NCBI GenBank assembly: GCA_001784615.1
Contig: MFRQ01000130.1
Location: 1-32,078 of the forward strand
DNA from: Candidatus Melainabacteria bacterium RIFOXYA2_FULL_32_9
GTDB lineage: Bacteria; Cyanobacteriota; Vampirovibrionia; Gastranaerophilales; UBA9579
DNA: 32,078 nt
Reading direction: 5' to 3'
Part shown: positions 4,228 through 25,715 of the stretch, piece by piece
Position numbering within the stretch: position 1 is the stretch's first letter
How the letters are laid out: each line of letters begins with the position of its first letter
Notes under the pieces: model-generated
What the model was told of the DNA's origin: nothing
The model's database searches: none
What the model saw: only the letters and a program-made list of their open reading frames with translations
Program-made: the position numbers and the translations under genes

Positions 4228-4602
4228 AAATATTTTTAATATCTTTCAGTCCTGAACTTGTATATCAATCATTATTATTAAAAATATATAAAAATTCAGA
4301 GTAAACATTTTTACATATTTTACACATTTTTCTATACTTAATTTCATCAAGTTTACTAACTGGCAACTTTTTCATCAAAATATTTAGTTAACTTATTCTT
4401 AATAAATCTTATATAACTAGTTTTAATAGTCTATGTTTAATTTAATATATCTAAGTATATATAGACTTTAAAAATTATATAGGTTAAAGCCCTCAAATAC
4501 TTGAAATTTTACCAATTAAATATAGTTTTTATAAGATTAATAATAAAATTTCAAGTAAGAAAAACCTTAAAACAATGTTTACAGGATTGCTGTCTGAAAA
4601 AT
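4228..4602. other. AT-rich spacer before the polysaccharide operon
   Basis: This stretch is strongly A+T rich and has no credible gene. A TTG-initiated extension of the export gene begins at 4501, but it would place a non-signal-like leader before the signal peptide. I found no convincing -35/-10 pair and no JUMPstart or ops element. The operon promoter probably lies here but cannot be fixed by eye. Confidence 0.4.
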
Positions 4603-5799
4603 ATGCAAACAATTAAATGTAATATAATTATTTTAACAATTTTGTGTTTAATAATGCCTGCTGTAGTTGCAAAAGAAGTTGATACTAATGACTACAGTAA
4701 TGTAGCTGCAAAATTAAGTGGGAATGCTTCAAAAACAAATTATAATGTAAGCTCAAGAAAGTATATTTTAGGGCCAAATGACATTATAAGCATCTATGTT
4801 TATGATTCTGAAGAATTTAATCAGGAAAAAATTCGTGTTCAGCCCGATGGAAATATTATTGTTGTACCTTTAGGAGCTTTAAAAGTGTCAGGGTTAACTA
4901 TTGATGAATTATACGAATATCTTGTTCTGAAATATAAGGAATATCTGAGAAATCCTCAAATAACTATTAAACTTGATCAAACTAAACCTTTTATAGTTTA
5001 TATTACCGGGGCTGTACTAAATCCTGGCAGTTATGAAATAAACACTGATACCACAAATAAACAAACCACCCTGGATAGTAAGCCTGAAGTCCAGATAGAA
5101 AGAAAAGCTCCTCTTCTCTCAAATGTAATTGTTGCTGCTGGAGGCATATCATTTGATGCAGATTTAGAACATACAAAAATCACTAATTCTATTGATAAAA
5201 CTGAATTTGAGGTGAATCTACTAGATTTACTTGAAAATAACGATACCACGCAGGATATCTATTTAACTACCGGTGATATAGTTCATATTCCAAGACTTCC
5301 AACACCATTAGCTGTAAGTGAAGATAAATATAAAAAATATGCCAGCTCAACTTTCTCTCCAAAATTTGTCCCTGTTAAGGTATATGGGTATGTAAATAAT
5401 CCTGGGTTAATAAAATTAGACAGTTCTCAGTCATTAAATTTAAGCTCTGCTATAACCTCAGCAGGTGGTTATTTATCTGATTCGGCATATGCACCTGCAA
5501 AAGTTTATATAAGCAGAGTTGATGTTTCAGGAAAGCTTGTAACAAGAGTTGTGAATCCTAAGAGTAACGATATAGCACTTATGCCAAATGACATAATTTA
5601 TGTCCCTGAAAAGGTCAGACCCCTTGCCGGTAAAGCATTTGATTATATGACAAGATTATTTATCCCTGCAAATACCTTTGCAAGTACATATAATAATTGG
5701 GCTTTAATGTTTAAGCCTAATAGATACAGCCCTACGCAGACAAATACTTATACAAATACCTATGATAATTGGTCATTTGATATTACAGTTCCCGAATAA
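4603..5799 (+). CDS. Polysaccharide export protein, Wza-like, SLBB domains
   Basis: A 398-residue periplasmic or outer-membrane export protein. Residues 1-23 form a signal peptide (MQTIKCN, hydrophobic core, then VVA before KE). Next come a Poly_export domain at about 53-125 ([13 protein letters not shown]), a first SLBB domain at about 129-230 ([13 protein letters not shown]) and a second at about 256-336 ([11 protein letters not shown], then [12 protein letters not shown]). No lipobox cysteine follows the signal peptide, unlike E. coli Wza, and the C-terminal tail is rich in Asn, Thr and Tyr with no obvious amphipathic helix. I chose the ATG at 4603 because it places the signal peptide first; a TTG at 4501 would add 34 residues. 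It lies 22 bases before its usual partner, the Wzc-like co-polymerase. Confidence 0.85.
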
Positions 5800-5821: not shown

Positions 5822-7999
5822 ATGAATCTTAATAGTAAACTTACCCAAAATAGATATATTCGCAATCTCTTAAAAGATCTGCATTTAATTCTTACAATTA
5901 CAGTAATAATTACTGTTTGGGCTGTGATATATTTAGTCTTTTTCTATCAGCCATCATATAAATCAACAGCAAAAATCTGGATTAAGGATTTAACGACAGA
6001 GGCTTTTGTAGCAAATTTAGATACTAATAGTCAATTAGCTCCATTAACCTCAGCCGGTAATCCTATTTTGACTCAAATTGAAATACTAAAATCAAATCAG
6101 ATAAAAAGTTATCTGATTAGTCATATTAAAGAAAAATATCCTAAAAATGGCAAGATAAATCCTGATAAAATTATTGATGCTAAAAGTAAAACCGGTACAG
6201 ATATAATAAATATTACTTTAAAATGGGATAATCCAGAAGAAGCACAAAAACTTCTTTATGCAGTATTAGAGGAATACGACAATATTAATCTTCTTATCAA
6301 TAGGAAAATCAGAACAACAAGACGTAAATACATTGATTTGAAGCTTACCGAAATAGAAGAAAAACTCTTTGATATAAGAACCAAAATCAAATCATATAAA
6401 TCAGAAAATTTGGCTATAAATCTTGATACAGAATCAGACAAACTTATAGACCAAAAAATTATTCTTTCAACAAAATTAGAGGAAATAACTGCTTCTGCAA
6501 ATAGTTTGCAAGTATCAAGTAACCAATTAGAAAAAAAATTATCCCTAAAACCAAATGAAGTAATCAATGCTGTAGCATTAGGATCAGGCAATCAAAGTCT
6601 TGTAAAATTAAGAAACGATTTAAATGATGCTATTCAGGAGTATGAATATGATATTATCAAATTATCAGATACAAATCCTAAAATAATAGCTCAAAAAAAT
6701 AAAATTAAAGCTATAAAAGAGCAGATAAAAGGACAAATCACGTTAAGTTTGGGCAAATATGCTCAAGATCAGAAAATTAACATATTCGATCCTGTAAGAG
6801 AAAAATTGGCTGAAGACTTAATAACCAATCAAGTAAGGTTCATCAGCTTAGAATCTGAGCAACAATCTTTAAATGATAGTATAAATAAGATCAATATTTT
6901 ATTATCCCAGATTCCTGAGAAAAAATTCACCTTAAACAACCTGGAGCAAATAGAAAAAGCATTAAGTAAGGCTTATGATGAGCTAAAAGAAAAACAAATC
7001 GAAGCAAGAATTAAAGAAGCAGAAGCTGTTAGCAATGTTATAGTTATAGATTCACCAAATTTGCCCAAATCAGCATCTTTCCCAAGTCCTCTACATGTAT
7101 TTATACTTACAATATTCTTGGGATGCGGTTTTGGTTTTAGTGCATCTATCTTAAAAACATTAATTGAAGATGTATGCGATGATCCGAAATTAATAGAACA
7201 CATAACACAGTCATCTATAATAGGCTCAATTACCTGGACTGAACGATTTAATGAAGATCAACATAATCAGGCTATTGCTAATATTGCTTACAATAACACT
7301 TTATCAAGCTTGTTAATCAAATGTTATAAGCAAAACGCAAAAGTTTTAACTTTTACCTCAACTTCACTTAAAAAACCTCAATCATCAATTCTGTATCAAT
7401 TATCACAAAGATTAAAAAAACAGGGACACTCTGTAGTAATTATAGATACTGATTTTAGGATTCCTACAATATACAAAAGTGCAGAAATAAAAGATAAAGT
7501 AAAAGTTAATTTATCTGATTTAATAATATATCTTGAAAACCAGATAAGAAAGAGACAATCCTTTGATGATAACTATATCTTAGACTCATTAATTATGGAT
7601 AATAATGGAATAATGCACTTAGGAAATAGAGAAATTGTTATCGAACCATATGAATTCTTTGGGACATCAGCATTCAACCTTATAGTATCAACTTTAAAAG
7701 AAAAATTTGACTGGGTATTAATTGATACAGCAGCAGCTCACGTTACACCTGAATTTTTAATCATATCAAGATTGTCCGATGGAGTTGTCCTCTTAGCAAA
7801 CAGGACAATTACCTACTCTACCCTAAAAAATATCTCTGAATCAATTAGGAATGCCGGTATTCCGATTATTGGCACAATTATTAGAGAATCAAATTCCCAA
7901 TTGGAAAAAGAATATGAAAAATATTTACAACATCAAGGAGACCAACTTACACAACAATCAGAAATAACTGACCTGGAATGGAATGAAAATGAAGGATAA
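5822..7999 (+). CDS. Wzc-like polysaccharide co-polymerase with degenerate kinase domain
   Basis: A 725-residue inner-membrane protein of the Wzz/Wzc class, which sets chain length and couples synthesis to export. It has a first membrane segment at about 22-42, a Wzz-type region, long coiled coils (about 165-405), a Pro-containing second membrane segment at about 424-446 (SPLHVFIL) and a cytoplasmic BY-kinase-like domain from about 485. Walker A' (VIIDTDFRIP, 539-548) and Walker B (WVLIDTA, 631-637) can be recognised. Walker A, normally GxGKST after a TS motif, reads TSTSLKKPQSSI at 512-523 and lacks the Gly-Lys-Ser/Thr core. The C-terminus has no tyrosine cluster. Kinase activity is therefore doubtful, and this may be a pseudokinase co-polymerase. 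Confidence 0.85.
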   Translation: MNLNSKLTQNRYIRNLLKDLHLILTITVIITVWAVIYLVFFYQPSYKSTAKIWIKDLTTEAFVANLDTNSQLAPLTSAGNPILTQIEILKSNQIKSYLISHIKEKYPKNGKINPDKIIDAKSKTGTDIINITLKWDNPEEAQKLLYAVLEEYDNINLLINRKIRTTRRKYIDLKLTEIEEKLFDIRTKIKSYKSENLAINLDTESDKLIDQKIILSTKLEEITASANSLQVSSNQLEKKLSLKPNEVINAVALGSGNQSLVKLRNDLNDAIQEYEYDIIKLSDTNPKIIAQKNKIKAIKEQIKGQITLSLGKYAQDQKINIFDPVREKLAEDLITNQVRFISLESEQQSLNDSINKINILLSQIPEKKFTLNNLEQIEKALSKAYDELKEKQIEARIKEAEAVSNVIVIDSPNLPKSASFPSPLHVFILTIFLGCGFGFSASILKTLIEDVCDDPKLIEHITQSSIIGSITWTERFNEDQHNQAIANIAYNNTLSSLLIKCYKQNAKVLTFTSTSLKKPQSSILYQLSQRLKKQGHSVVIIDTDFRIPTIYKSAEIKDKVKVNLSDLIIYLENQIRKRQSFDDNYILDSLIMDNNGIMHLGNREIVIEPYEFFGTSAFNLIVSTLKEKFDWVLIDTAAAHVTPEFLIISRLSDGVVLLANRTITYSTLKNISESIRNAGIPIIGTIIRESNSQLEKEYEKYLQHQGDQLTQQSEITDLEWNENEG

Positions 8000-8777
8000 A
8001 GAGAGAATAAACTTTTTTGGCATCAACATAGACCCTTTAACAATGGAAGAAACGTTATTCAGAATCTCTGAATTCATAGAGAAAAAGCAAATTACACAAC
8101 ATGTGGTTATCAATGTTGCTAAGTTAGTTTATGCGCAAAAAAATAAAGAATTAAAAAATATAATAAATTCGTGCAAACTAATCAATGTTGATGGAGCCGG
8201 AATAATTTTAGGGGCTAGATTTTTAGGAATAAATATCCCCGAAAGAGTTACCGGTATAGATTTAATGCAAGAATTGGTTGCCTATTCAAGCAAGAAAAGA
8301 TATAAAGTCTACTTTTTTGGAGCTCAAGAGTTTATAGTTAAAACAGTAATAGAAATTTATAAACAAAAATATCCTGAATTAATAATTGCAGGATACCGAA
8401 ATGGTTATTATTCCTCTGATGAAGAGGAAAACATCGCAATGGATATAAAAAACTCAGGTGCTGATATCTTGTTTGTTGCAATGGGATCACCCAAGAAAGA
8501 GATTTTTATAAATAAATATCTTCATAAAATGGAAGTCCCCTTTGTAATGGGGGTAGGCGGCAGCTTTGATGTTATTGCAGGAAAGGTCAAAAGAGCCCCT
8601 AAATTTCTCCAAAAATATGGCCTAGAGTGGTTATATAGGCTCTATCAAGAACCGAAGCGCATGTGGAAGCGATATCTGGTTACAAATTCTATATTTTTTA
8701 TAATGCTGTTCAAACAATTCATTAAACAAAATTTCCCCTTGAAATTTTTATTTTTAAAATCCCGTCAGACTTCATAG
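7983..8777 (+). CDS. WecG/TagA/CpsF-family glycosyltransferase (GT26)
   Basis: A 264-residue transferase of the family that adds N-acetylmannosamine (TagA) or its uronic acid (WecG) to a lipid-linked acceptor at the inner face of the membrane. Family motifs are clear: NVAKLVYAQ, NVDGAGI (D70 is the likely catalytic aspartate), ERVTGIDLM, VAMGSPKKE and GVGGSFDVIAGK, then a basic C-terminal region (YQEPKRMWKRY) that helps membrane binding. It overlaps the co-polymerase by 17 bases, so translation is coupled. A second ATG six bases downstream is an alternative start. A UDP-ManNAc-type dehydrogenase further down (18077) could supply UDP-ManNAcA, so the two may work together. The sugar specificity cannot be read from sequence. 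Confidence 0.85.
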   Translation: MKMKDKERINFFGINIDPLTMEETLFRISEFIEKKQITQHVVINVAKLVYAQKNKELKNIINSCKLINVDGAGIILGARFLGINIPERVTGIDLMQELVAYSSKKRYKVYFFGAQEFIVKTVIEIYKQKYPELIIAGYRNGYYSSDEEENIAMDIKNSGADILFVAMGSPKKEIFINKYLHKMEVPFVMGVGGSFDVIAGKVKRAPKFLQKYGLEWLYRLYQEPKRMWKRYLVTNSIFFIMLFKQFIKQNFPLKFLFLKSRQTS

Positions 8778-8899: not shown

Positions 8900-10264
8900 A
8901 TGAGTAATTTTAAGAAGTTAGATCTGTTTTTTATATTTTTATCAATTATTTTTGGAGCATTAATATTATTTTTTCCAATCCAAAAATTACTCATAATGTT
9001 TTTAGGGGTTATTTTTCTGACTTTATTAGTGGCTAAACCCAAATATTGCTTTTATTTAATGCTTTTATTGTCAACTTATGTATTCCCCTTTGAAACTGAG
9101 GCCAGACAATTACCGTTTAATCAAACAGATATCTTAATTTCACTCTGCTTTATAGGGGCTTTAGTTAGAATACTTTTTCTTGATCAGAGATTTAATCCCA
9201 AAACGAGGATTGATAAATGGATTATTATCTTGCTAATCTTGTATTTCCTGGCTGGGTTTACCTCTATTAGCCATAGAGGATATCAAGGCTTTTTAAAATT
9301 TGGGGAAACAGTTACTGTATTTTACTTAAGTATTTATTTTATAAGAACTAAAGAGATTAAAATATCAAATCTCATCAGATTCATATTATTTATAGGAATA
9401 TTTCAAGCATCTTATGGCATATTACAATCTTTAACGGGCAGTTTTGGAGCTAATTTTCAATCAGAAAGAGGTCTTTTAGGATATATTGGACTAGGATCAA
9501 AGTTAGTATGGCATGGTAGAGGCACATTTGCTCACTTTAATCATTTCGGTCCTTTTTTAAGTATGATCTTTTTATTTTTCTTACCTATAAATCATTTTCT
9601 GGTAAAAAATAAGAAGAAGGGGTATATGATACTTTTAATTCTCCTAACTGGAGTCATTATTTCATATTCTCGAGCAAGCTTGCTAGGATTAGTCGCTGGT
9701 ATCATATTTTTCCTATTTCAGATTAAGAAAAATAAGCTTAAATTTCTCTCAATATTAGTATCTGTGTTATTAGTGGCTTTAGGACTATACAATTTCTTAA
9801 AAAATACATCATACATAACGACACTAGCTCCCAGAAATGATATATGGGAGGTAGTATTTACTGCTATTACCAGTAGTACACGTACTTTATTGTTTGGAAC
9901 AGGGTTAAAATCTTATACAGACGCTGTATGGGTTTATCTACCCGGCAATATTCTTCCATCATCATACAATGATTTTCAGGCACACAATTTTTGTCTCCAT
10001 TACATTGTAGAAATTGGAATAATAGGCTCAATAATAGTATTATCATTCCTGATTTACACCATAGTTGCAGCATATAGTAATTTTAAAACTAATACGAAAC
10101 TAGCAAAAGTTTTAAGCTCATCAACCAGCATTGTTATTGTATGCTTCTTTTTTGAAGGATTATTTGATACTGCATTTAATTTATTTACTATACAAATATG
10201 GTTATTTTTAATTTTAGGTCTTATGTATTCCAAAGTCCCAATAATAAATAAGGTTAAACGATAG
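8900..10264 (+). CDS. O-antigen polymerase/ligase family membrane protein (Wzy/WaaL-like)
   Basis: A 454-residue integral membrane protein with about ten to twelve hydrophobic segments. It carries the O-antigen ligase-family region: HGRGTFAHFNHFG at 205-217 before a membrane segment, SYSRAS at 255-260, and a long loop ending in an AHNFCLHYIVEIG-type motif near 354-366. Such proteins either polymerise lipid-linked repeats (Wzy) or transfer polymer to a lipid or protein acceptor (WaaL, PglL). Next to export and co-polymerase genes, Wzy is the likelier role. A 122-base gap without a clear ribosome site precedes it; the GT2 gene follows six bases later. Confidence 0.8.
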   Translation: MSNFKKLDLFFIFLSIIFGALILFFPIQKLLIMFLGVIFLTLLVAKPKYCFYLMLLLSTYVFPFETEARQLPFNQTDILISLCFIGALVRILFLDQRFNPKTRIDKWIIILLILYFLAGFTSISHRGYQGFLKFGETVTVFYLSIYFIRTKEIKISNLIRFILFIGIFQASYGILQSLTGSFGANFQSERGLLGYIGLGSKLVWHGRGTFAHFNHFGPFLSMIFLFFLPINHFLVKNKKKGYMILLILLTGVIISYSRASLLGLVAGIIFFLFQIKKNKLKFLSILVSVLLVALGLYNFLKNTSYITTLAPRNDIWEVVFTAITSSTRTLLFGTGLKSYTDAVWVYLPGNILPSSYNDFQAHNFCLHYIVEIGIIGSIIVLSFLIYTIVAAYSNFKTNTKLAKVLSSSTSIVIVCFFFEGLFDTAFNLFTIQIWLFLILGLMYSKVPIINKVKR

Positions 10265-10270
10265 AATTAG

Positions 10271-11287
10271 ATGAATATACTAATCTCAGTTGTTATTCCA
10301 ACATATAATAGAGCTAATATAATTACAGATGCTATCGATTCTGTACTCAAACAAACTTATCAAAATTTTGAGATTCTAATAATAGACGATGGATCGGCTG
10401 ATAATACTGAAAACATAATTAAGGAGATTCAAGACCAAAGAATTAAATATATTTACCAGGAAAATAGTGGTCCTGCAAAAGCAAGAAATAACGGAATAAA
10501 ACATTCAAAAGGTGAATACATTGTATTTCTTGATTCAGATGACTTATGGCACCATGAATTACTAGAAAAACATATCAAAATCTTAAATACTAACAGTAAT
10601 ATAGGCATGGTATCTAACCATAGTTTATATAAAACTTTTGATGGCCAATATATACGCAAAAAAACTTGTCAGGCTAAAAATAATAAAGAATATCTCCAAT
10701 ATATTTTGACAGAACCTGATAAAGCTTATCCTGGACCTTCTACAACCATGTTTAAAAGAGAGTGCTTTGAAAAAGTGGGATATTTTGATGAAACATTGAA
10801 TTTTTGTGAAGACTGGGATCTGTGCTTTAGAGTAGCACTTTTTTATGAGTTTCATTGTATTAACGGAACATTAACCTACGTCAGGGTACACCAAAACAGC
10901 TTGAGCAGGACTCGTGAAGTGGAAAAATTTAGAAACAGCTATTTAAAATTTCTACAAAAGGCTTTTGAAAATACAAGTCTGCTGCAAGAAGCTTTATATC
11001 ATTTTGCACTTAATAAACATAATTTATTTTCCTGCTTGATAAAATGCAAACTATTAAACATAAAAAATAAAGCTTATAGCAATGCTTTATGGTCAATTGG
11101 CAGCTGGGCATTATATAAATCTAGAGATTCTTTTGTTGCAAGGAAAAATCTTCTAGAAAGTCTTGGATATTCACATACTAAAATATTTAATCTAAAATTT
11201 TTAATGGCTCTTTTACTTAGCCATTTTCCATTATTTATGCTAAACACTTATGAAAAGCTTAAAAAAGGATCTGGGAGAGCCTATTAA
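10271..11287 (+). CDS. Family 2 glycosyltransferase (GT-A fold)
   Basis: A 338-residue inverting-type transferase. The N-terminal nucleotide-binding start ISVVIPTYNRA is at 5-15, IIDDGS at 37-42, and the metal-binding DSDD at 88-91 is the DxD motif. FCEDWDLCFR at about 178-187 carries the catalytic-base ED. The last 100 residues are basic and partly hydrophobic, as in enzymes that work at the membrane surface. It probably adds one sugar to the lipid-linked repeat. It begins six bases after the polymerase gene, and its stop overlaps the flippase start by one base (TAATG), so all three are in one operon. Donor and linkage are unknown. Confidence 0.88.
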   Translation: MNILISVVIPTYNRANIITDAIDSVLKQTYQNFEILIIDDGSADNTENIIKEIQDQRIKYIYQENSGPAKARNNGIKHSKGEYIVFLDSDDLWHHELLEKHIKILNTNSNIGMVSNHSLYKTFDGQYIRKKTCQAKNNKEYLQYILTEPDKAYPGPSTTMFKRECFEKVGYFDETLNFCEDWDLCFRVALFYEFHCINGTLTYVRVHQNSLSRTREVEKFRNSYLKFLQKAFENTSLLQEALYHFALNKHNLFSCLIKCKLLNIKNKAYSNALWSIGSWALYKSRDSFVARKNLLESLGYSHTKIFNLKFLMALLLSHFPLFMLNTYEKLKKGSGRAY

Positions 11288-12777
11288 TGAACATACATAC
11301 TGAAAAGAAAGTAAGTCTGTCAAAAAATATATCATTCGTAATGTTTGCAAGCATATTCAGGCAATTTTTATCTCTCTTTTCAGGAATTGTTGTAGCCAGA
11401 ATATTACTACCGCAAGATTTTGGAATAATAAGTATGGCTGCAACTTTTAGCGGCTTAATCGATGTATTCAGTAAATTTGGAATGGAAACTTTTATAATTA
11501 GCCGTCAGAATCTATCAAAGACTGATATTAACTCAGTTTATCTACTCAATATTCTTGCAGGTATTGTTTTTGCTATAATAATGATCATAATATCTCCTGT
11601 AATTGCAAATATTTATAGAACCCCTGAAGTAAAATATATTCTATTTTTTGCAGCAATATCACTTTTGATCACTTCTTTTATAAGTATACCAAGGGCTTTG
11701 CTTATTAAGAATATGAGACAAGACGTGGTATCGAAAATAGAAATAGTTCAAAGTCTTTTAAATGTCGGTCTTATAATAGTATTTGCTCTTTTAGGTTTCC
11801 GTTATTTAAGTTATGTAATTCCATTATTAATCGTTAATTCAGCAAGTTGTATAATTTATCTTGTTATAACAGGATGGAAATTCTCAATAGACTTTAGTAA
11901 AGATATTTTCAGTCAAACTTTTGCTTATAGCAAAAGTTTCTTACCTAAAACGATCCTTACATTCTTTGTTTATAATTCTGATTACATATTTATCGGGTAT
12001 TTATTAGGTCCAACTTTATTAGGATATTACTTTTTTGGCTTTGATAAAGCTTCAATACTTGTAGGATTACTCGTAGGTCTTCATTGCAATATATTTTTCC
12101 CCATCTTTTCAAAATTACAAGCAAATAAAAATGATTTAAAAACTACTTTCTTTTCACTTATGGAAAAGCAAGCTTTTATAGTATATCCATTGATTTTCGC
12201 TCAGATAATGCTGGCAAAAGAGCTAATCAACCTGATTTATGGAGCAAGGTGGGACAATTCTATTTTAATTTTCCAGTTAATTCTGGGATATATCTTTGTA
12301 CGTATAACAGCTTCAATTATTCATGTTTTATTTGATGCTGTTAATATGCCTCAACAAAACCTAAAACACTTTTTACTTATTACACCAATATGTCTCGTGG
12401 CATTCTTTATAGGAATCAAACTTGGAAACCTAAAAGGAGTAGTAATAGCAGCTTTTGTTGCTCATTTATTTGCAAGTTTCTTACTGTTTATTCGTGTCTG
12501 TTTTGTTTTTAAGTGGGATTTCAGTGAATTTTTATCATATCTGTCCAAATTTTTTATTCCAATTATTTTACAAATTCCTGTTATTATTCCATTAAAATTA
12601 TATTTAAATTACCTGACTTTACCGGATTACATCACAATATTAATAATGGTTCCAATTATTTTTACTTTATATATATTCTTAACAAGCTTATTCTTAAAAG
12701 ACTTTTATAATAACGTTGTGGAACCTACCAGACTGAAAATATTGTCCATAATAGGAGATAAACTGGTAATGGATTGA
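11287..12777 (+). CDS. Wzx-like polysaccharide flippase
   Basis: A 496-residue membrane protein with about 12-14 transmembrane segments, of the polysaccharide biosynthesis/MOP flippase superfamily. The N-terminus is typical: a polar lead, then FVMFASIFRQFLSLFSGI and VARILLPQDFGIISMA. Wzx proteins move the undecaprenyl-linked repeat unit to the outer face of the inner membrane for polymerisation. Translation is coupled to the GT2 gene through a TAATG overlap. It is the last gene of the tight operon; a repeat-rich gap of about 500 bases follows. Its length is in the normal range and I see no frameshift. Confidence 0.85.
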   Translation: MNIHTEKKVSLSKNISFVMFASIFRQFLSLFSGIVVARILLPQDFGIISMAATFSGLIDVFSKFGMETFIISRQNLSKTDINSVYLLNILAGIVFAIIMIIISPVIANIYRTPEVKYILFFAAISLLITSFISIPRALLIKNMRQDVVSKIEIVQSLLNVGLIIVFALLGFRYLSYVIPLLIVNSASCIIYLVITGWKFSIDFSKDIFSQTFAYSKSFLPKTILTFFVYNSDYIFIGYLLGPTLLGYYFFGFDKASILVGLLVGLHCNIFFPIFSKLQANKNDLKTTFFSLMEKQAFIVYPLIFAQIMLAKELINLIYGARWDNSILIFQLILGYIFVRITASIIHVLFDAVNMPQQNLKHFLLITPICLVAFFIGIKLGNLKGVVIAAFVAHLFASFLLFIRVCFVFKWDFSEFLSYLSKFFIPIILQIPVIIPLKLYLNYLTLPDYITILIMVPIIFTLYIFLTSLFLKDFYNNVVEPTRLKILSIIGDKLVMD

Positions 12778-13276: not shown

Positions 13277-13723
13277 ATGTCTGGAGTAGTTTATTTTTTA
13301 TACAAGATAGCAAGAGCGCTTTATCTTGCCCATATACCTTTGTTACCTGCGTTAATCAAGTTATTTATCAGGGTTATATTTGCGTGCAGCCTTCCTTATA
13401 CTGCCAAAATTGGAGAAAACACCATTCTAGGTTATGGGGGACTTGGAATAGTGATTCATTCTGACAGTATAATAGGTAAAAACTGTATAATTTCTCAGGG
13501 AGTTACAATTGGAGGGAGCAGCCGCAATCCTAAAGTACCTGAAATAGGGAATAATGTTTTAGTTGGGGCAGGTGCTAAGATTATCGGCCCGATAAAAATA
13601 GCTGATAACGTTGTAATTGGAGCCAATTCTGTCGTAACCAAAGATATTCCTTCAAACGTATTGGTAGCAGGCATACCAGCCAGAGTAATTAAAGAAAATA
13701 TTAATATTAATGACTATTTATAG
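13277..13723 (+). CDS. Hexapeptide-repeat O-acetyltransferase (serine acetyltransferase-like)
   Basis: A 148-residue left-handed beta-helix acyltransferase. Repeating hexapeptide turns run from about residue 44 to 125 (IGENTILG, IIGKNCII, IGNNVLVGAGA, IADNVVIGANSVV). The closing motif AGIPARVIKE is typical of this group. H61 in GIVIHSDSIIG matches the catalytic histidine position of CysE-like enzymes. At 148 residues it lacks the N-terminal helical domain of true serine acetyltransferases. In a polysaccharide locus such a protein most likely acetylates a sugar from acetyl-CoA, though this is inferred from context. The start has no strong ribosome site. It is 20 bases ahead of the first GT4 gene. 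Confidence 0.8.
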   Translation: MSGVVYFLYKIARALYLAHIPLLPALIKLFIRVIFACSLPYTAKIGENTILGYGGLGIVIHSDSIIGKNCIISQGVTIGGSSRNPKVPEIGNNVLVGAGAKIIGPIKIADNVVIGANSVVTKDIPSNVLVAGIPARVIKENININDYL

Positions 13724-13743
13724 TTATTAAACACATAATTATT

Positions 13744-15003
13744 ATGAAAAAGACCAAACAAAAACTAAAGGTACTCCATTTAATCTCTTCTCTAGCTATT
13801 GGAGGAGCAGAGAGACTGCTTGTTGATTTAATTAAAGTATCCAATTTATGTTCTAGCGATAAAAAATGTTATAACAAATCAAATAATGATGTTGAGTTTA
13901 TCATTGTCATTATAAATGATGTAATAGACGAAGAATTAAGGCAACAATTAATTTCTACCGGCTACAGCGCTTATTTTCTAAATAAAAAAGAACGTGATAA
14001 AAACCCTAAATACCTATTTAAACTCCTTGATATAGTTAAAAAGCACGATATAGATATTATTCACTCTCATAATAATGGCAGTAAATACTGGGCAATATTG
14101 TGCAAGCTGATAAACTATAAATTAAAGTTAGTTCACACCATTCATGACTCTGTGATTTTTAAAAAGCCAGATAAATTAAGTCTTTTTAAACACAATAGTT
14201 TTACAAACCCAATCATGAACTTATTTAAAAACAATAACATCAAAAAAACAACCCTAGTATACGGTGGTTCAGGCAGATTAAATCTCTTTATCCATAAAAT
14301 TTTTATAGATATGAATATAGCTATATCTAAAGCTATTTTAGAGGAATGTAATAACAATGGAATCAAGAAAAAAACCCTGATATATAACGGTATTGATACT
14401 AAAAGGGTTAGTAATATTACCAGACAACATAATAGAAACATGGAAACATTAAATATAATAAATGTTTCCAGAATTACATATCATAAAAAAGGTCAGGACA
14501 TACTTATAAAAGCCCTTAAAGAGTGTAAAGATAAAGGCCTGAATTTTACCTGTAGTTTTGTAGGTGGTGTGTATGATTATGATAAAGCGTCTATAGAGTA
14601 TCTAAAGGATCTTATAAAGAATTATAATTTAGAAAACGAAATCTCATTTTTAGGTAATAGAAACGATATTCCTGATTTACTGGCAAAGGCAGACTTGTTT
14701 ATATTGCCATCAAGACATGAAGGCTTGCCTTTAGTTTTACTAGAAGCCATGGCTTCAGGGTTACCTGCTATTGCCAGTAATATTTCCGGTTCAAATGATA
14801 TAATTAATCCTGAAGAGAATGGCTTGTTATTTGAAAGTGAAAACCATACTGATCTGGCTAATAAGATTTTAGAGCTTTACAATAACCAGAACAAAATGCA
14901 TTATCTGGCACAAAATGCCCATAAGCACGCACAGCAGTTTGATATTTCAATAATGTGCAAAAATTATTATGCTTTATACAGAAAATTAGTTAAAAAATTA
15001 TGA
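13744..15003 (+). CDS. Family 4 glycosyltransferase (GT-B fold)
   Basis: A 419-residue retaining transferase. The N-terminal acceptor domain starts VLHLISSLAIGGAERLL (10-26) with the glycine-rich loop. The C-terminal donor domain carries the EX7E signature in PSRHEGLPLVLLEAMASGLP near residues 321-340. A stretch at about 145-185 is Lys/Asn rich and is longer than in many relatives. It is a cytoplasmic or membrane-surface enzyme adding one sugar to the repeat. Its stop overlaps the next GT4 start by four bases (ATGA). The sugar cannot be predicted. Confidence 0.86.
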   Translation: MKKTKQKLKVLHLISSLAIGGAERLLVDLIKVSNLCSSDKKCYNKSNNDVEFIIVIINDVIDEELRQQLISTGYSAYFLNKKERDKNPKYLFKLLDIVKKHDIDIIHSHNNGSKYWAILCKLINYKLKLVHTIHDSVIFKKPDKLSLFKHNSFTNPIMNLFKNNNIKKTTLVYGGSGRLNLFIHKIFIDMNIAISKAILEECNNNGIKKKTLIYNGIDTKRVSNITRQHNRNMETLNIINVSRITYHKKGQDILIKALKECKDKGLNFTCSFVGGVYDYDKASIEYLKDLIKNYNLENEISFLGNRNDIPDLLAKADLFILPSRHEGLPLVLLEAMASGLPAIASNISGSNDIINPEENGLLFESENHTDLANKILELYNNQNKMHYLAQNAHKHAQQFDISIMCKNYYALYRKLVKKL

Positions 15004-16046
15004 AAAATAACTCAAAAATATTAATGATAGGCCCTGATCCAGATTCTTTTGGAGGAATTTCCTCCGTAATAAAGCTGTATCAAGGATCTTTTGATAATGT
15101 AATGTTTTTATCGTCATGCAAAAATGGCAATATCATTAGTAAAATCTTGTTTTTTGGTTATTTTTTACTAAAATATATCCTTATCTTGTTTAAAAATAAG
15201 AGTTTAAGGATAATCCATATCCATGTATCTACAGGTGCAAGCTTATTTAGAAAATCAATAGCCGTAAATATAGCAAAATTACTCAATAAAAAGGTTATAT
15301 TTAATATACATCCAGCTAGATTTAACGAATTTTACAAAAATTCTCATCCACTAATAAAGGCCTATATTAAAAATATACTTGATAAAAGTGATTTAATCTT
15401 AATATTATCCGAAAAAATCAAAATTGATCTTATGAATATATGCCCTGATGGCAATTTTAAAGTATTATATAACCCAATTACTATAAAAGAGCTTAAAATA
15501 AAAACATCTGAAGATATAAAAGCCTTGTTTTTAGGTAAATTATGCCGTAATAAAGGTGTTTATGATATTATTGAAGCCGCAAAACAAGTAAAAAGCGATA
15601 ATATTAAAATATATTTATATGGGGACGGTGATTATAAACACTTCCAAAAATTAATAGAATCTAATAATTTACAAGATAAAATGTTTATATCAGGTTGGAT
15701 TTCTGGAGATAAAAAAGAGAAAATTATAGAGACCTCAGATATATTTGTTTTACCCTCTTATACTGAAGGACTGCCAATCTCAATTTTAGAAGCAATGGTA
15801 AATGGATTACCAATAATATCAACTCCTGTTGGTGGAGTTCCTGAAGCCGTTATAGATGAAGTAAACGGTTTTTTAATTGAATCTGGAAATTATAACGCTC
15901 TTGCTGATAAAATAGAACTTCTGGCAAATAATAAAGAACTTAGGAATAAAATGGGTCAAGAGAGTTTCAATATAGCCAGGGAAAAATTTGATATTAGTGT
16001 AATAGTAAACCAATTAAAGGGCATTTATGAAGAACTATTGGGATAA
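15000..16046 (+). CDS. Family 4 glycosyltransferase (GT-B fold), second copy
   Basis: A 348-residue GT4 enzyme distinct from its neighbour. It begins with ILMIGPDPDSFGGISSVI (7-24), the phosphate-binding glycine loop, has a hydrophobic stretch at about 45-62 (ILFFGYFLLKYILILF) and ends with the donor domain signature PSYTEGLPISILEAMVNGLP near 251-270. Translation is coupled to the previous gene by a four-base overlap, and the next gene starts inside its last 20 bases. The three genes are thus one translational unit, and each transferase probably adds a different sugar to the same repeat. Confidence 0.86.
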   Translation: MKNNSKILMIGPDPDSFGGISSVIKLYQGSFDNVMFLSSCKNGNIISKILFFGYFLLKYILILFKNKSLRIIHIHVSTGASLFRKSIAVNIAKLLNKKVIFNIHPARFNEFYKNSHPLIKAYIKNILDKSDLILILSEKIKIDLMNICPDGNFKVLYNPITIKELKIKTSEDIKALFLGKLCRNKGVYDIIEAAKQVKSDNIKIYLYGDGDYKHFQKLIESNNLQDKMFISGWISGDKKEKIIETSDIFVLPSYTEGLPISILEAMVNGLPIISTPVGGVPEAVIDEVNGFLIESGNYNALADKIELLANNKELRNKMGQESFNIAREKFDISVIVNQLKGIYEELLG

Positions 16047-17265
16047 AAGCAATATATACGACTCTTTTAACAGGTTATATAACTATGTCATCAAACATGA
16101 TTATACAGGCATAGATGTATTTGATGGCCTAAACAGCAAGCTTTTTAAGGATACACCTTTATATAAAAGCAAACTCTTTCGACTTGCCCTAATTCAATTT
16201 TGTAAAAGAAGTCCTGTAAATTTCAGGAAGCTTTTACTCGTTTCCCCGGGATTTAATCCTAAAGCAGGTGCATTGTTCCTCTTAGGCAACCTGAATATGT
16301 ATAAAGCCACAAATGATGATCAATACAAAAATGAAGCTGAAAGATTATTCTACAAGTTAAAAGAAACACATATACATAGATATAAAGGTATTAGCTGGGG
16401 ATATAATTTTGAATGGCAGGCAAGGGCTTTCTTTGTACCTATAGATACACCAAATATAGTTACAACTGTGTGTGTTGGTAAGGCATTACTAGAATATTAT
16501 AATATTTTCCAGGATAAAGAGTCATTAGAACTCGCTGTACAGGCTGCTGAATTTATTCTTAACGAGATGATTAAATTTGAAGATGAAAACAAACTTTGTT
16601 TTGGCTATATACCAGAAGAAGATGCAGAAGTGCATAATGCTAATCTTCTTGCTGCAAGCTTTTTATCATCTTTAAACCAATATATTAAAATTCCTGATTT
16701 AGATAAAAAAATCATAAAATCACTCAATTTCTCAATTTCTGATATCAATAAAGACGGATCATGGCCTTATGGGACAAAGCCATTTCATCGATGGGTTGAC
16801 AACTTTCATACAGCCTTTAATATTGAAAGCCTTATTAATATTAAAGAAAATCTAAATTTAATAGATTTAACCCGAGTTATAGATAAAGTAACAGATTTTT
16901 ATTTTGATGAACTGTTTACAAATGAAGGAATGCCGAAGTATTACAATAATAACCTTTATCCCGTCGATATTCATGTGATCGCTGAAGCAATTATCCTTAT
17001 AAATAGACTCAAACTTTTCAAAATTACTAATAATCAGGAAAAAATTGCAAAAATTGAGAAAAAACTTCTTGAATTAATCAATGTTTTTCAGGATAAAAAG
17101 GGATATTTTTACTACCAAAAAGGAAAATATTTCTGGAATAAAACCCCATATATCAGATGGGCACAAGCCTGGATGTTTTACGCTCTTAGTGATATTATTC
17201 TTTTTGAAAAATTATATTCAAATAATCCAAATGAACTTTCACAGACGCAAGTTTATAATTTATAA
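16027..17265 (+). CDS. Unknown protein of polysaccharide loci, probable (alpha/alpha) barrel
   Basis: A 412-residue soluble protein with no signal peptide. Its conserved-looking motifs are WGYNFEWQAR (124-133), VHNANLL (202-208), DGSWPYG (243-249) and WVDNFHTAFN (256-265). The pattern of paired helices with aromatic and acidic residues at the turns suggests an (alpha/alpha)6-toroid, like unsaturated glucuronyl hydrolases or cellobiose epimerases. Similar proteins sit beside glycosyltransferases in many exopolysaccharide loci, sometimes mislabelled as aminolevulinate dehydratase; that comparison is from memory. The start (AAAGGG seven bases upstream) lies inside the preceding GT4 gene, so it is made together with the transferases. 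The function is unknown; a sugar-processing or scaffold role is inference. Confidence 0.7.
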   Translation: MKNYWDKSNIYDSFNRLYNYVIKHDYTGIDVFDGLNSKLFKDTPLYKSKLFRLALIQFCKRSPVNFRKLLLVSPGFNPKAGALFLLGNLNMYKATNDDQYKNEAERLFYKLKETHIHRYKGISWGYNFEWQARAFFVPIDTPNIVTTVCVGKALLEYYNIFQDKESLELAVQAAEFILNEMIKFEDENKLCFGYIPEEDAEVHNANLLAASFLSSLNQYIKIPDLDKKIIKSLNFSISDINKDGSWPYGTKPFHRWVDNFHTAFNIESLINIKENLNLIDLTRVIDKVTDFYFDELFTNEGMPKYYNNNLYPVDIHVIAEAIILINRLKLFKITNNQEKIAKIEKKLLELINVFQDKKGYFYYQKGKYFWNKTPYIRWAQAWMFYALSDIILFEKLYSNNPNELSQTQVYNL

Positions 17266-17288: not shown

Positions 17289-17426
17289 TTGATGATGAGT
17301 TAATTTCTTCCGTCGCTGGTGCTAACGCACATAATTAGGTCATCACCGGAATGATTGGTGACATAATTATGTGACTGTGTCACCTACGAGTTTTCAAGGC
17401 TCCTCCAGAAACAAACTCCTCATCAA
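17289..17426. repeat. 138-bp element with terminal inverted repeats
   Basis: The ends, from 17289 inward and from 17426 inward, match at 17 of the first 20 positions (TTGATGATGAG against TTGATGAGGAG). Inside are further palindromes: GTGC/GCAC at 17319-17330, GGTCATCACC at 17338-17347, and ATGTGACTGTGTCACC at 17369-17384. The last is repeated perfectly in inverted orientation at 19417-19432. It has no coding capacity and no clear target duplication. Size and structure resemble a MITE-like non-autonomous element. It fills most of the gap between the barrel protein and the VanZ-like gene. Confidence 0.55.
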
Positions 17427-17866: not shown

Positions 17867-18076
17867 ACTCAGAATACAATAGTGCAATAACGTAAACTAA
17901 TAGCTTTAATTAAGTCTGCTAGTTTCAGTGGCTATAGGTGATGACTTAAGTTAGGTAATGGATATTACCAAAATACATCTTTAATAATAGTAACAATCAA
18001 TTAAAAAGAAACTTTATCAACGCTTTTTATCAAATATAATTACATAATAATTATATTTAGTTTGAGTTGGAAAATT

Positions 18077-19333
18077 ATGAAAAAGGTATGCGTTTTAGGA
18101 CTGGGATATATTGGCCTACCAACTGCAAGTATGCTTGCAAATAATGGATACGAGGTATATGGAGTAGATATATCACCAAAAGTAGTTGATATTATTAATA
18201 ATGGAGATATTCATATTGAAGAACCAGGGCTTAAAACCCTTGTTAAAGCAGCAATTAATTCCGGAAATCTAAAGGCGTATCTCACCCCTCAAGAAGCAGA
18301 CATATTTATTATAGCTGTTCCAACGCCTATAGATGAGAATAAAAAGTCTGATTTAAGCTATATAAAGTCTGCTGCTGAATCTATAGTTAATAAATTAAAA
18401 AGCGGTAACCTCGTTATACTCGAATCAACATCTCCTCCAGGCACTACCAGAGATTTTTTAGTACCTATTCTTGAAAAATCCGGCTTAAAAATTGGAAAAG
18501 AGCTTTTTATAGCTTATTGTCCGGAAAGAGTTTTACCTGGAAAAACCATTAATGAGCTAATTCAAAATACTAGAATAATAGGTGGCATAAATCAAACTTC
18601 AGCTCAACAAGCCAGAGAAATTTATATATCATTTGCCGAAGGAGATATACACTTAACTGACGCCACTACAGCAGAAATGGTCAAGATAATGGAAAACACT
18701 TACAGAGATGTAAATATCGCATTAGCTAATGAATTGGCTCAAATTTCACATAATATAGGAGTAAATGCTTGGGAAGTTATTAAGCTGGCTAACTTACATC
18801 CAAGAGTAAGAATCCATAACCCTAGTCCAGGTGTTGGAGGACATTGTATTTCTGTAGACCCCTGGTTTATAGTAGAAAAAGTTTCTACTCTGGCTAAATT
18901 AATAAACCAATCCAGAAACATAAACGACTCTATGCCTGAGTTTACTTATGATCTGCTTTTACGTCAGGTTAAAGATATTTCCAATGCTAAAATTACAATC
19001 TTAGGGATAACTTATAAAGCTAATATAGATGATATCAGGGAATCTCCTGCTGTCAAAATAATTGAAATGATTAACAATAACCCTAATTTAAGATTGTCTA
19101 TTTATGATCCACACGTTAAATACTTTGATTATGAGTTATCGGGCTTTGAAGAAGCCTTTAAAAACAGTGACTGTATACTTTTAACTGTAGATCATGCCGA
19201 GTTTAAATATCTGGATCCAGAGCAAATCGCTAAAATAGTAAGGAATAAAATAATTATAGACACCAGAAATGCTCTTAATAGACAAAAATGGGAAGAAAAT
19301 GGCTTTAAATACATACTCCTTGGCGAAGGTTAG
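18077..19333 (+). CDS. wecC: UDP-N-acetyl-D-mannosamine dehydrogenase-type nucleotide-sugar dehydrogenase
   Basis: A 418-residue NAD-dependent, four-electron dehydrogenase that oxidises the C6 hydroxyl of a UDP-sugar to a carboxylate. The NAD-binding motif GLGYIGLP is at 8-15, the central EMVKIMENTYRDVNIALANE contains the substrate-binding lysine (about 203), and the catalytic cysteine is about C257 in GVGGHCISVDPWF. The HPRVRIHNPSPGVGGHCISVDPW wording resembles WecC more than UDP-glucose dehydrogenases. I chose the ATG at 18077 because MKKVCVLGLGYIG begins the Rossmann fold at once; a TTG 15 bases upstream is possible. No wecB epimerase is visible. The product could feed the GT26 enzyme at 7983. 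Confidence 0.85.
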   Translation: MKKVCVLGLGYIGLPTASMLANNGYEVYGVDISPKVVDIINNGDIHIEEPGLKTLVKAAINSGNLKAYLTPQEADIFIIAVPTPIDENKKSDLSYIKSAAESIVNKLKSGNLVILESTSPPGTTRDFLVPILEKSGLKIGKELFIAYCPERVLPGKTINELIQNTRIIGGINQTSAQQAREIYISFAEGDIHLTDATTAEMVKIMENTYRDVNIALANELAQISHNIGVNAWEVIKLANLHPRVRIHNPSPGVGGHCISVDPWFIVEKVSTLAKLINQSRNINDSMPEFTYDLLLRQVKDISNAKITILGITYKANIDDIRESPAVKIIEMINNNPNLRLSIYDPHVKYFDYELSGFEEAFKNSDCILLTVDHAEFKYLDPEQIAKIVRNKIIIDTRNALNRQKWEENGFKYILLGEG

Positions 19334-22451: not shown

Positions 22452-23501
22452 ATGAATTCTGAAAATAAAATAAATGTATTAATAGTTGATGATTCGGCTT
22501 TAATGCGCAGGATGATTACCGATATATTAAATAATCATCCTAAAATTAATGTTATTGGTACAGCGTCAAACGGTAAAATAGCTCTAGATCAACTTGAAAA
22601 GTTAAAACCGGACGTAATTACACTTGATATAGAAATGCCTTTAATGAATGGCATTGAAACTCTAAAAGAAATCAATCATATTAGACCATTGCCTGTAATA
22701 ATGTTTAGCAGTCTCACTAAAGCTGGTGCAGAAACAACCCTTCAAGCTTTAGAATCCGGTGCTACTGATTTTATTACCAAGCCTGATCCTAAATTAGGAC
22801 AGACATTTGAAAGCATAAAAGATGAACTCATATCTAAAGTTTTAGCAGCAGCAGAAATAAATCAAAGCAAAATTAGTCAGACAATTCAGAAAATAAGCTC
22901 AAAAGTCTCGATTATTAATCGATCTTCAAAAAGCACTAATATTAAAACAGTCGTAATTGGAACATCTACTGGTGGACCACAAGCATTAAAATCAGTAGTA
23001 CCATACTTACCCGAAGATTTACCTGCTCAAATTCTAATTGTACAGCATATGCCTCCAAAATTCACTGATTTACTTGCACAAAGACTGGATAAATTAAGTC
23101 AAATAAGTGTTAAAGAGGCACAGGAGGGCGATTTATTAAAAAGAGGGTTAGCCCTTATGGCTCCAGGAAACTACCATATGTGTGTTGAGGACAATAATAG
23201 TATAAAATTAAACCAGGAGCCGCCTTTATGGGGAGTAAGGCCAGCAATTGACTTGACTTTATCATCTGCAGCTAAAATATTTAATAAAAATTTAATTTGT
23301 GTAATTCTTACAGGGATGGGACATGACGGCACACAAGGTGCTAAAGCAGTTAAAAAGTTCGGAGGCTATTGTATAGCTGAAGATAAATCTACCTGTGTTA
23401 TTTACGGCATGCCCAAAAGCGTTATAGATGCAGGTTGTGCAGATAAAATAGTCCCTCTTCCTGAAGTAGCAAATGCAATTATAGAAGCTGTTTATAGGTA
23501 A
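22452..23501 (+). CDS. cheB: Chemotaxis protein-glutamate methylesterase CheB
   Basis: A 349-residue two-domain protein. The receiver domain (about 7-125) has D13-D14, the phosphorylated D59 in VITLDIEMP and K110 in TKPDP. The methylesterase domain (about 163-345) has the triad S172 in GTSTGGP, H199 in VQHMPPKF and D292 in TGMGHDG. CheB demethylates, and in some species deamidates, receptor glutamates to reset sensitivity, opposing CheR. cheR begins five bases after its stop, so the two are translated together. The gene opens the first chemotaxis cluster after a 141-base gap without a clear terminator or promoter. Confidence 0.95.
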   Translation: MNSENKINVLIVDDSALMRRMITDILNNHPKINVIGTASNGKIALDQLEKLKPDVITLDIEMPLMNGIETLKEINHIRPLPVIMFSSLTKAGAETTLQALESGATDFITKPDPKLGQTFESIKDELISKVLAAAEINQSKISQTIQKISSKVSIINRSSKSTNIKTVVIGTSTGGPQALKSVVPYLPEDLPAQILIVQHMPPKFTDLLAQRLDKLSQISVKEAQEGDLLKRGLALMAPGNYHMCVEDNNSIKLNQEPPLWGVRPAIDLTLSSAAKIFNKNLICVILTGMGHDGTQGAKAVKKFGGYCIAEDKSTCVIYGMPKSVIDAGCADKIVPLPEVANAIIEAVYR

Positions 23502-23506
23502 TAGAA

Positions 23507-24352
23507 ATGAAAGATAAAACCATAGAAAATAATAACCTTGATAATTTTGAGTTTATTCTGGCAGGAAAAATTCCATCACCTGAAGAATTTGCCATATTTA
23601 AGAAAAAGATGGCTTTATTAATTAATCTTGATTTAACTAACTATAAAAGTAGCCAAATGGAAAGAAGAATAACTTCTTTAATGCATCGGCACAATATAAA
23701 CAGCCTTATGGAATATTATCATCTTTTAAATAAGGATTCTAAGCACCTTACTGAGTTTATAAATATGTTAACCATAAATGTTACTGAGTTTTTCAGAAAT
23801 CCTGAAAAATTTCTTGAATTAGAAACCAAGTATATTCCTGAATTAATGCAAAAAAGCCAAAGATTAAAAGTCTGGTCATCAGGGTGTTCAACTGGAGCTG
23901 AAATTTATACTCTTGCAATGATTTTGGATAAATTTAATATTCTTGAAAAATGCACTTTAATAGCATCAGACTTTGATCAAACCGCTATTAATAAAGCTAA
24001 AGAAGGTATTTTCCCAATGTTTGAACTGAAGAGTGTCCCGAATGAATATAAAAGACATTTTAAAGCAATTGATAATACTGAAGAAAAAGTCCAGTTCAAT
24101 CCTCATTTAATCTCAAAAGTAAAATTTGAAAGAAGAGATCTGTTAAACAGTAAGTTTGAAACAGACTTTGACTTAATTCTATGTAGAAATGTAGTAATTT
24201 ATTTTACAGAAGAAGCCAAAGATCATTTATATGAGAGCTTTTATAATAGTTTAAAACCTGGCGGAATACTATTTATTGGATCAACAGAAAGAATAAATAA
24301 ATCTAAAGAATTAGGATTTAATCTAAGATCATCTTTCTTTTATCAAAAATAG
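23507..24352 (+). CDS. cheR: Chemotaxis protein methyltransferase CheR
   Basis: A 281-residue SAM-dependent methyltransferase that methylates receptor glutamates. The N-terminal helical CheR domain is at about 25-88 (YKSSQMERRITSLMHRH), the conserved link INVTEFFRN at 90-98, and the SAM-binding motif WSSGCSTGAEIYT at 123-135 (usually GEEPYS). FDLILCRNVVIYFT is the late catalytic-fold motif. A 22-residue polar N-terminal lead precedes the usual domain start. No pentapeptide-binding receptor tail was found in the MCP of this window, so it probably acts directly on the methylation helices. Confidence 0.95.
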   Translation: MKDKTIENNNLDNFEFILAGKIPSPEEFAIFKKKMALLINLDLTNYKSSQMERRITSLMHRHNINSLMEYYHLLNKDSKHLTEFINMLTINVTEFFRNPEKFLELETKYIPELMQKSQRLKVWSSGCSTGAEIYTLAMILDKFNILEKCTLIASDFDQTAINKAKEGIFPMFELKSVPNEYKRHFKAIDNTEEKVQFNPHLISKVKFERRDLLNSKFETDFDLILCRNVVIYFTEEAKDHLYESFYNSLKPGGILFIGSTERINKSKELGFNLRSSFFYQK

Positions 24353-24411
24353 AGCTTTGAAATCTTATACTGTATAATAAATTTTGTGATTCATCTGAGT
24401 AAGGTTATTTA

Positions 24412-25104: not shown

Positions 25105-25590
25105 AATGTATCATTAATTTTGAAATTATAGTACCTGTTAAGTCTATTTATTATATAAGTCTAGATATCTATTTAAAAGAAGAACAGTTTCAATAAATTT
25201 TGTACTAACTGGTTCCTTTAAATGTTACCGTAAATTTACATAAAATATTTAATAAATATATAAAACAGTTAATTAAAAAATAAGGTCAAAATACTTTAAT
25301 TTACTAATTAAAACTGGTATTTTATAAATATTTTTTATGATATAAATAAGAGATATTAAAAGCTTATTTTTGTTTTAACAACTTGATAAACAGATTTTAT
25401 AACTATATAAACCAGTATTTACAACATTTTAAAAGGTTTTTAAAAATTATACATTTTTAAAACATTTTGTTTGTTTTTTTGAAAAAATGGCTTGTTAAAA
25501 TAGGTTCATCTGATAAAACTTAATGTACCTATTAGTTTAAAAGAAAAATATTCTCGAAATAATTTTCTACCAAAACTTTACGTCACAAAG
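25105..25590. other. Very AT-rich gap between regulator genes
   Basis: This stretch, by eye among the most AT-rich in the window, has no reading frame with codon structure or a plausible start. Long A- and T-runs are common, for example near 25440-25500. I see no strong hairpin, so the end of the cheB-cheR-regulator transcript is not marked. It may hold binding sites for either flanking regulator, but no repeated motif stood out. Confidence 0.4.
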
Positions 25591-25598
25591 TCTTGATG

Positions 25599-25627: not shown

Positions 25628-25715
25628 GGTACCACAATACAGGAATACATTTAAACTCAAAATCTCATTTTTAAAAATCTTGTCCAGGAGAATTGTAAGT
25701 AGTAAGGGAGCTTTT

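Follow-up and report, generated by a model that had tools for sequence, protein, structure and literature searches.

A predicted helical-toroid protein of a melainabacterial polysaccharide cluster, proposed as a hexuronyl C5-epimerase of lipid-linked repeat units

Organization of the Locus

The window considered here is the whole analyzed stretch of 32,078 nucleotides (contig MFRQ01000130.1) from Candidatus Melainabacteria bacterium RIFOXYA2_FULL_32_9, and the target gene is an open reading frame (ORF) for a protein of 412 residues situated in its polysaccharide cluster (Table 1). As the original prediction, made from the letters alone, had recognized, this ORF starts inside the second of two glycosyltransferase genes, both of the GT4 family according to Pfam, and the three genes form a chain of overlapping frames; judging from the overlap, translation of the target may be coupled to that of the GT4 genes. 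The predicted fold, the conserved residues and the gene neighborhoods make it probable that the product is a hexuronyl C5-epimerase acting on lipid-linked repeat units in the cytoplasm. C5-epimerization converts D-uronic to L-uronic acids, altering polysaccharide folding and recognition.

The surroundings of the target constitute a Wzx/Wzy-type polysaccharide cluster, which also includes a VanZ gene. The dehydrogenase encoded downstream scores 442.5 bits against NF008286, just below the cut-off of 459, and shares 45% identity with the dehydrogenase of a Vibrio vps cluster, and WecB is encoded in the genome of the window. Shortly 3′ of the target there is an imperfect inverted repeat with 18-nt arms, 89% complementary, and a 10-nt spacer, which is possibly the end of the target transcript. 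The Rfam scan of the window gave no match above the gathering score. A chemotaxis gene set lies beyond the polysaccharide cluster, and at its left edge the window carries a radical SAM/SPASM protein gene.

Table 1. Positions in the window of the target gene, selected codons and other features
Feature	Coordinates	Strand	Basis or remark
Target gene, 412 residues, predicted helical toroid, proposed hexuronyl C5-epimerase	16027..17265	+	ATG start
Y194 codon	16606..16608	+	100% of 118 family members; aligned with GlcE catalytic Y500
N204 codon	16636..16638	+	99% of 118; aligned with GlcE catalytic N510
Y248 codon	16768..16770	+	100% of 118; adjoins G249, which is aligned with GlcE Y560
H261 codon	16807..16809	+	100% of 118; under GlcE Y578 in 2/6 settings (F260 in 4/6)
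GT4 glycosyltransferase	15000..16046	+	Pfam; 20 bp overlap with target
GT4 glycosyltransferase	13744..15003	+	Pfam; 4 bp overlap with next GT4 gene
Nucleotide-sugar dehydrogenase, UDP-ManNAc dehydrogenase type	18062..19333	+	NCBIfam NF008286
WecG/TagA/CpsF family (GT26) glycosyltransferase, candidate ManNAcA transferase	7983..8777	+	
Wzy-type polymerase	8900..10264	+	Wzy_C
GT2 glycosyltransferase	10271..11287	+	
Wzx-type flippase	11287..12777	+	
Hexapeptide-repeat acyltransferase-like protein	13277..13723	+	
Wza-type export protein	4501..5799	+	Poly_export, SLBB
Wzz/Wzc-type chain-length protein	5822..7999	+	
Imperfect inverted repeat	17328-17373		
Chemotaxis set (CheB, CheR, response regulators, MCP, CheW, CheA, CheC)	22452-31608		
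Radical SAM/SPASM protein gene	250-1323		

A Broad Bacterial and Archaeal Family

The target is a member of a genuine and broad family with bacterial and archaeal representatives, relatives being encoded by at least 552 of 592 candidate stretches from bacterial and archaeal species genomes. The nearest of them occur in Candidatus Melainabacteria (locus L045, 69%), Gastranaerophilales (L024, 66%) and Vampirovibrio (L018-L020, 54-56%). Within the phylum, 292 sampled genomes were queried with the single sequence at E ≤ 0.001, and the gene was found in the window genome only; the Melainabacteria relatives from the species-genome search were not matched in this sample. Phylogenetic analysis (midpoint root) placed the window, Vibrio, Pseudoalteromonas and Burkholderia proteins inside one group of 17 rows with support of 100/99. 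No NCBIfam model matched the window protein at E ≤ 1 or the Vibrio family member (L004) at E ≤ 1e-20, and the earlier statement that no family with known function could be recognized was nearly right, apart from a short Pfam match to GH88 considered below. Searches of viral contigs with peptide patterns of the target gave no match. Second family copies are found close to the first on a Halomarina plasmid (L008:5959-7158 and 7287-8546) and on a Gemmatimonadetes contig (L039:3337-4548). In public annotation, some members (L003, L011, L016, L098-L101) are called “aspartate-semialdehyde dehydrogenase” or “antibiotic ABC transporter permease”, names that fit neither the fold nor the neighborhood of the family.

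Predicted Fold and Conserved Residues

An AlphaFold2 model built with 47 sequences (mean predicted local distance difference test score 93.4, predicted template modeling score 0.94) is mostly helical with short strands and displays a predicted (α/α)6 toroid of the kind found in the AGE superfamily, in line with the helical toroid that had been suggested initially. Cellobiose 2-epimerases head the list of fold matches (5zhb, Z 31.1 over 340 residues at 3.3 Å; 3vw5, Z 30.1), followed by GH76 mannanases (Z about 30), D-mannose isomerase (Z 26.9), N-acylglucosamine 2-epimerases (Z 25-26), and YteR and unsaturated glucuronyl hydrolase (Z 24.6). Such a common fold tells little about function: it fits several families and therefore cannot separate them, and it is the conserved residues that favor GlcE-like chemistry. 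The highest 19-residue mean hydropathy of the target is 1.40, and the protein is presumably cytoplasmic.

Among 118 family members, D33, P142, Y194, Y248, H261 and W378 are invariant, and D30, N204, F361 and R377 are kept in 99%. When the toroid faces and their margins were set by hand from the secondary structure, 17 of the 18 polar or tryptophan positions conserved in at least 93% were located in or near the long loops of one face, which makes up 47% of the chain (binomial p 3e-5), and the opposite face, with its short turns, had none of the 18 close by; the conserved face of the model is read as the active-site face. The three motifs singled out in the original prediction are all present in the protein, and two of them contain residues conserved across the 118 members (N204, 0.99, in VHNANLL; H261, 1.00, in WVDNFHTAFN), whereas WGYNFEWQAR is well conserved in the nearer relatives only.

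The family was compared with GlcE, the heparosan-type D-glucuronyl C5-epimerase (PF06662), which also has bacterial forms and whose helical catalytic domain can be aligned colinearly with it. For this comparison, GlcE-type PF06662 proteins were gathered (L167, L168), four GlcE sequences were aligned by hhalign to the 118-member family, and the positions of human GlcE (E499, Y500, N510, Y560 and Y578, at chain index minus 90) were fixed from PDB chain alignments, in which entry 6i01 carries F in place of Y578. The family profile matched GlcE over 219 columns with an E value of 4.4e-8 and a probability of 94.9. The six alignment settings were not independent of one another; each of them placed the catalytic Y500 on Y194 and N510 on N204, the spacing of ten being equal in both. 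GlcE differs in possessing β-hairpin and β-sandwich domains, as described in PMC13308652, which are absent from the target model. PF06662 itself matched 4 of 47 relatives at E ≤ 0.001 and 2 of 16 at E ≤ 0.01. By profile, the target is not counted as a member of PF06662, AGE or GH88. A sequence search of the PDB gave nothing credible for the single protein and nothing at E ≤ 1 for profile A2, and what profile A1 matched, namely GH76 (best E 2.3e-4) and fragments of squalene-cyclase toroids, was set aside as generic helical-hairpin similarity. Short Pfam matches in relatives (C5-epim_C, Pec_lyase, GH127, GH76) were likewise not taken as proof, since the matched stretches viewed are incomplete and one protein is hit by several toroid families.

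Gene Neighborhoods

Neighborhoods were surveyed in 81 loci, that is, the window and the best 80 of the at least 552 relatives, a set rich in Bacteroidota. Neighbor classes were assigned by best match to home-made, uncurated profiles derived from window and plasmid-locus proteins; gene starts were taken as the first ATG, GTG or TTG, so that overlaps outside the window may be overstated. A glycosyltransferase is present in 79 of the 81 loci (all except L090 and L095). The gene directly downstream of the target is of the WecG type in 56 loci, WecB in 6, DUF354 in 3 and a dehydrogenase in 1 (66/81 in sum), and the WecG-type gene overlaps the target in 44 of the 56; conversely, these loci contain 72 WecG-class ORFs, 56 of which are directly preceded by the target. 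A same-strand GT4-class gene directly precedes the target in 13/81 loci, overlapping it in 11 of the 13, and WecB is found in 27/81. The survey bears out the proposed tie of a helical toroid to repeat-unit synthesis, whereas the description of the gene as locked to two glycosyltransferases proved too narrow, the commoner partner being a WecG-type transferase or a gene supplying uronate or N-acetylmannosamine (ManNAc).

WecG of enterobacterial common antigen transfers N-acetylmannosaminuronic acid (ManNAcA), and TagA/TarA transfers ManNAc; the neighbor therefore points to ManNAc or ManNAcA. The subfamily is not distinguished by NCBIfam for the WecG-type protein of the Vibrio locus, the scores for ManNAcA transferase (158.4 bits), EpsA (157.9) and TarA (143.7) all being below cut-off. 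In the 16 archaeal plasmid loci, WecB or a nucleotide-sugar dehydrogenase occurs in 12 and annotated DUF354 in 11, L100 having neither, and no annotated aglB was seen in the 16 loci viewed. The 28 dehydrogenases of at least 370 residues from the window, bacterial and archaeal loci comprise UDP-ManNAc (8), TuaD (8) and AglM (7) types (E ≤ 1e-105; matches can overlap), a mixture that fits one chemistry on several uronic acids.

Two genome samples were also analyzed. Among 50 genomes carrying the target (50 of the 80 loci, hand-picked towards isolates), UDP-ManNAc dehydrogenase was above cut-off in 29. The second sample consisted of 197 genomes of the class, presumably Bacteroidia, of a Flavobacteriales bacterium (L080), in 20 of which the family was detected at E ≤ 1e-20; with this central genome excluded, UDP-ManNAc dehydrogenase was above cut-off in 4 of 19 family-positive and 2 of 177 negative genomes (Fisher p 8.6e-4). 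From the 19 positive genomes, 16 loci were viewed, G366, G392 and G532 being left out as partial matches, and GT4, GT2 or WecG was matched in 11.

Other recurrent neighbors were observed. A PaaK/CapK-like AMP-ligase gene is present in 43/81 loci (L018-L097, e.g., L018, L024, L030) and in the vps-type cluster (L004:5588-6916). A gene of the bi-domain oxidoreductase class directly precedes the target in 16/81 loci and in 9 of the 16 class-sample loci (L106, L107, L109, L111, L114, L115, L117-L119), and DUF354 directly follows it on the same strand in 3/81 and 5/16, respectively.

Possible Relationship to Vibrio Exopolysaccharide and Archaeal Glycan Assembly

In Vibrio THAF191d (L004), the gene order is UDP-ManNAc dehydrogenase (708.6 bits against the cut-off of 459), VpsD, Wzx, VpsF, AMP-ligase, GT4, target and WecG, so that the family member is flanked by GT4 and WecG-type genes in a cluster that also has VpsD and VpsF; the cluster of Pseudoalteromonas THAF3 (L003) is similar, with one intervening acyltransferase gene. 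We take VpsK of V. cholerae to be the WecG-type gene and VpsH the AMP-ligase gene. The vpsA-K genes correspond to VC0917-27 according to PMC3901696, and VpsI is a glycosyltransferase and VpsJ a protein of unknown function according to PMC5109742. The Vibrio family member therefore sits at the VpsJ position and, judging from gene order, is probably the counterpart of V. cholerae VpsJ. The window differs from the vps cluster in that GT4 precedes the target but WecG is located elsewhere, both GT4 genes giving NCBIfam matches below cut-off, and in that no AMP-ligase gene was found among the scanned window ORFs.

The Vibrio exopolysaccharide (VPS) contains N-acetylgulosaminuronic acid (GulNAcA), most probably in the L form, which its discoverers expected to arise from D-ManNAcA by C5 inversion, and carries glycine on this residue (PMC3901696). 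In a 2015 review (PMC4432689), the guluronic acid (GulA) of VPS is ascribed to an “unknown C5-epimerase” and the glycine-adding enzyme is stated to be unknown; the AMP-ligase is therefore a candidate for the latter, as an idea only. No assignment of a C5-epimerase to VpsJ was met in the listed titles, abstract openings and passages covered by the literature search, subscription papers being mostly outside its reach.

A precedent for epimerization on a lipid carrier is found in archaea. In PMC13308652, Agl32 of Halobacterium salinarum is described as a D-glucuronyl C5-epimerase of N-glycan assembly that acts on the lipid-linked glycan and requires a sugar on both sides of the target residue. 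The same text gives Agl32 an all-helical single domain and, as best fold classes, cellobiose 2-epimerase, D-mannose isomerase and GlcNAc 2-epimerase, as obtained for the target. Haloarchaeal family loci (L008, L017, L101) also hold a nucleotide-sugar dehydrogenase together with aglF. A difference is that Agl32 homologs are reported to have few His, Glu and Tyr residues at the active-site regions of other epimerases (PMC13308652), in contrast to the invariant Y194, Y248 and H261 of the target family. If the target shared the two-neighbor requirement, overlap with the gene for the next-sugar transferase would make sense. Another candidate relative is AglQ of Haloferax volcanii, which PMC3827465 depicts as a soluble protein of a lipid-linked glycan pathway and a proposed isomerase with a predicted AGE/GH88-like fold, for which T38 and K52 are reported to be essential.

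Proposed Reaction

From these comparisons we infer the activity, substrate, lipid-linked stage and single-residue roles of the target. UDP-ManNAc would be made by WecB, encoded elsewhere in the genome, and oxidized by the dehydrogenase at 18062; a WecG-type enzyme would then move D-ManNAcA onto the polyprenyl-linked repeat unit, where the soluble helical-toroid enzyme would invert C5 of the placed hexuronate to give L-GulNAcA, before the repeat unit is flipped by Wzx. Tyrosine and histidine residues around C5, for which Y194, Y248 and H261 are candidates, may remove the C5 proton from one face and give it back on the other, and N204 together with the basic residues R67, K79 and R377 may hold the carboxylate. 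The conversion of D-ManNAcA to L-GulNAcA is probably the reaction in the window cluster.

Conflicting Evidence and Alternative Functions

Several observations weigh against this assignment or restrict it. Exact matches cover only 2 of the 5 GlcE catalytic residues: Y560 falls on G249, beside the invariant Y248, in the six settings, Y578 on F260 in four and on H261 in two, and E499 on G193 (S or G across the family) in four, being unaligned in two and thus having no counterpart. PF06662 gave no match to the window protein at E ≤ 1, and the three PF06662 stretches seen in relatives span 40, 40 and 72 residues, one of them above cut-off. The AGE profile matched the family slightly better than GlcE did (E 1.3e-8), and since the two values are similar, both may partly reflect the common toroid repeat. 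With regard to the genetic context, the WecG-type gene of the window is 7.3 kb upstream of the target without direct contact. In the class sample, most family-positive genomes lack UDP-ManNAc dehydrogenase, WecG is only weakly linked to the family (6/20 positive against 24/177 negative genomes), and in the 16 loci a dehydrogenase was matched in 2 and none of the neighbor classes in a further 2 (L113, L116). A family-wide rule placing the target next to WecG was dropped because of the 6/20 count. The mixed dehydrogenase types make one substrate for all members unlikely. For VPS, the 2015 review suggests that the dehydrogenase VpsB might epimerize (PMC4432689). The class-sample results therefore leave the ManNAcA reading strongest for the branch of the window, different uronates being the probable substrates of the remaining members.

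A cytoplasmic glycoside hydrolase with the (α/α)6 fold of GH88, GH105 or GH76, which would trim wrongly made lipid-linked repeat units as a quality control, is the foremost alternative and is considered unlikely. GH88 (PF07470) matched the window protein in Pfam with 30.2 bits, above the cut-off of 26.6, and matched 28 of 47 relatives at E ≤ 0.001; GH76, YteR and unsaturated glucuronyl hydrolase structures are among the fold matches (Z 24-30), and the acids D30, D33 and D314 are conserved. The window match, however, covers 105 residues at profile positions 32-115 of 352, so that the GH88/GH105 profile is not matched over most of its length, and its score in the genome search was 24.3, below cut-off. 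The alignment of GH88 with the family profile is too poor to decide the matter (E 4.1e-5, probability 70): the sole conserved aspartate aligned, D165 (L142), falls on Q380, and the other, D203, lies outside the aligned part. Besides D, the set of best-conserved residues contains Y, N, H, W and R, and trimming would leave the tie to ManNAc and uronate genes unexplained.

An AGE-type 2-epimerase or isomerase whose substrate is a free or reducing-end sugar agrees with the top fold matches, with the AGE profile and with E243 of AGE, which falls on E267, kept in 77% of the family and counting against GlcE-like chemistry; it is nonetheless regarded as improbable. Two histidines conserved in the AGE superfamily are catalytic in cellobiose 2-epimerase, and these do not appear to be retained in the family: in an alignment of moderate certainty, with the histidines taken from nine AGE (PF07221) sequences, H240 and H373 fall on Y264 (0.55) and M376 (0.48) locally, and on Q320 and nothing globally. 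WecB, another kind of 2-epimerase, is already available in the genome and in the 27 loci mentioned. Another uronate-modifying or scaffold role, such as aiding amidation or holding transferases together, receives a similarly low probability: it would accord with the frequency of the AMP-ligase-like gene (43/81 loci) and with the GulNAcA-Gly of VPS (PMC3901696), but a single face with invariant polar residues argues for catalysis, and Pfam revealed no nucleotide-binding domain in the window protein. Slightly less probable still is a lyase that abstracts the C5 proton and then eliminates beside the uronic acid for chain release or turnover. C5-epimerases and lyases have chemistry in common, and 23 of 47 relatives give a Pec_lyase (PF09492) match at E ≤ 0.001, but the stretches seen span 42-80 residues below cut-off, the target overlaps transferase genes, and a cytoplasmic lyase in a synthesis operon would degrade what that operon makes. 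Among the three roles put forward in the original prediction, the epimerase is accordingly favored and can be sharpened to C5-epimerization of a carrier-bound hexuronate, trimming and quality control being less favored, and the structural search that it had proposed against GH88, GH105 and 2-epimerase folds returned matching folds with the AGE histidines on other residues.

Implications for the Family

A broader proposal, to which we give slightly less than an even chance, is that the unnamed toroid family of bacteria and archaea forms a distinct class of hexuronyl C5-epimerases acting in the cytoplasm on lipid-linked repeat units instead of the finished polymer. This class would include the missing L-GulNAcA enzyme of Vibrio exopolysaccharide, and its subfamilies would take ManNAcA, glucuronic acid or diacetamido uronic acids according to the neighboring dehydrogenase. 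If this is true, one gene and four residues would provide a handle on the source of GulA in VPS, the misleading database names of family members would be corrected, and L-uronic acids would become predictable from genomes.

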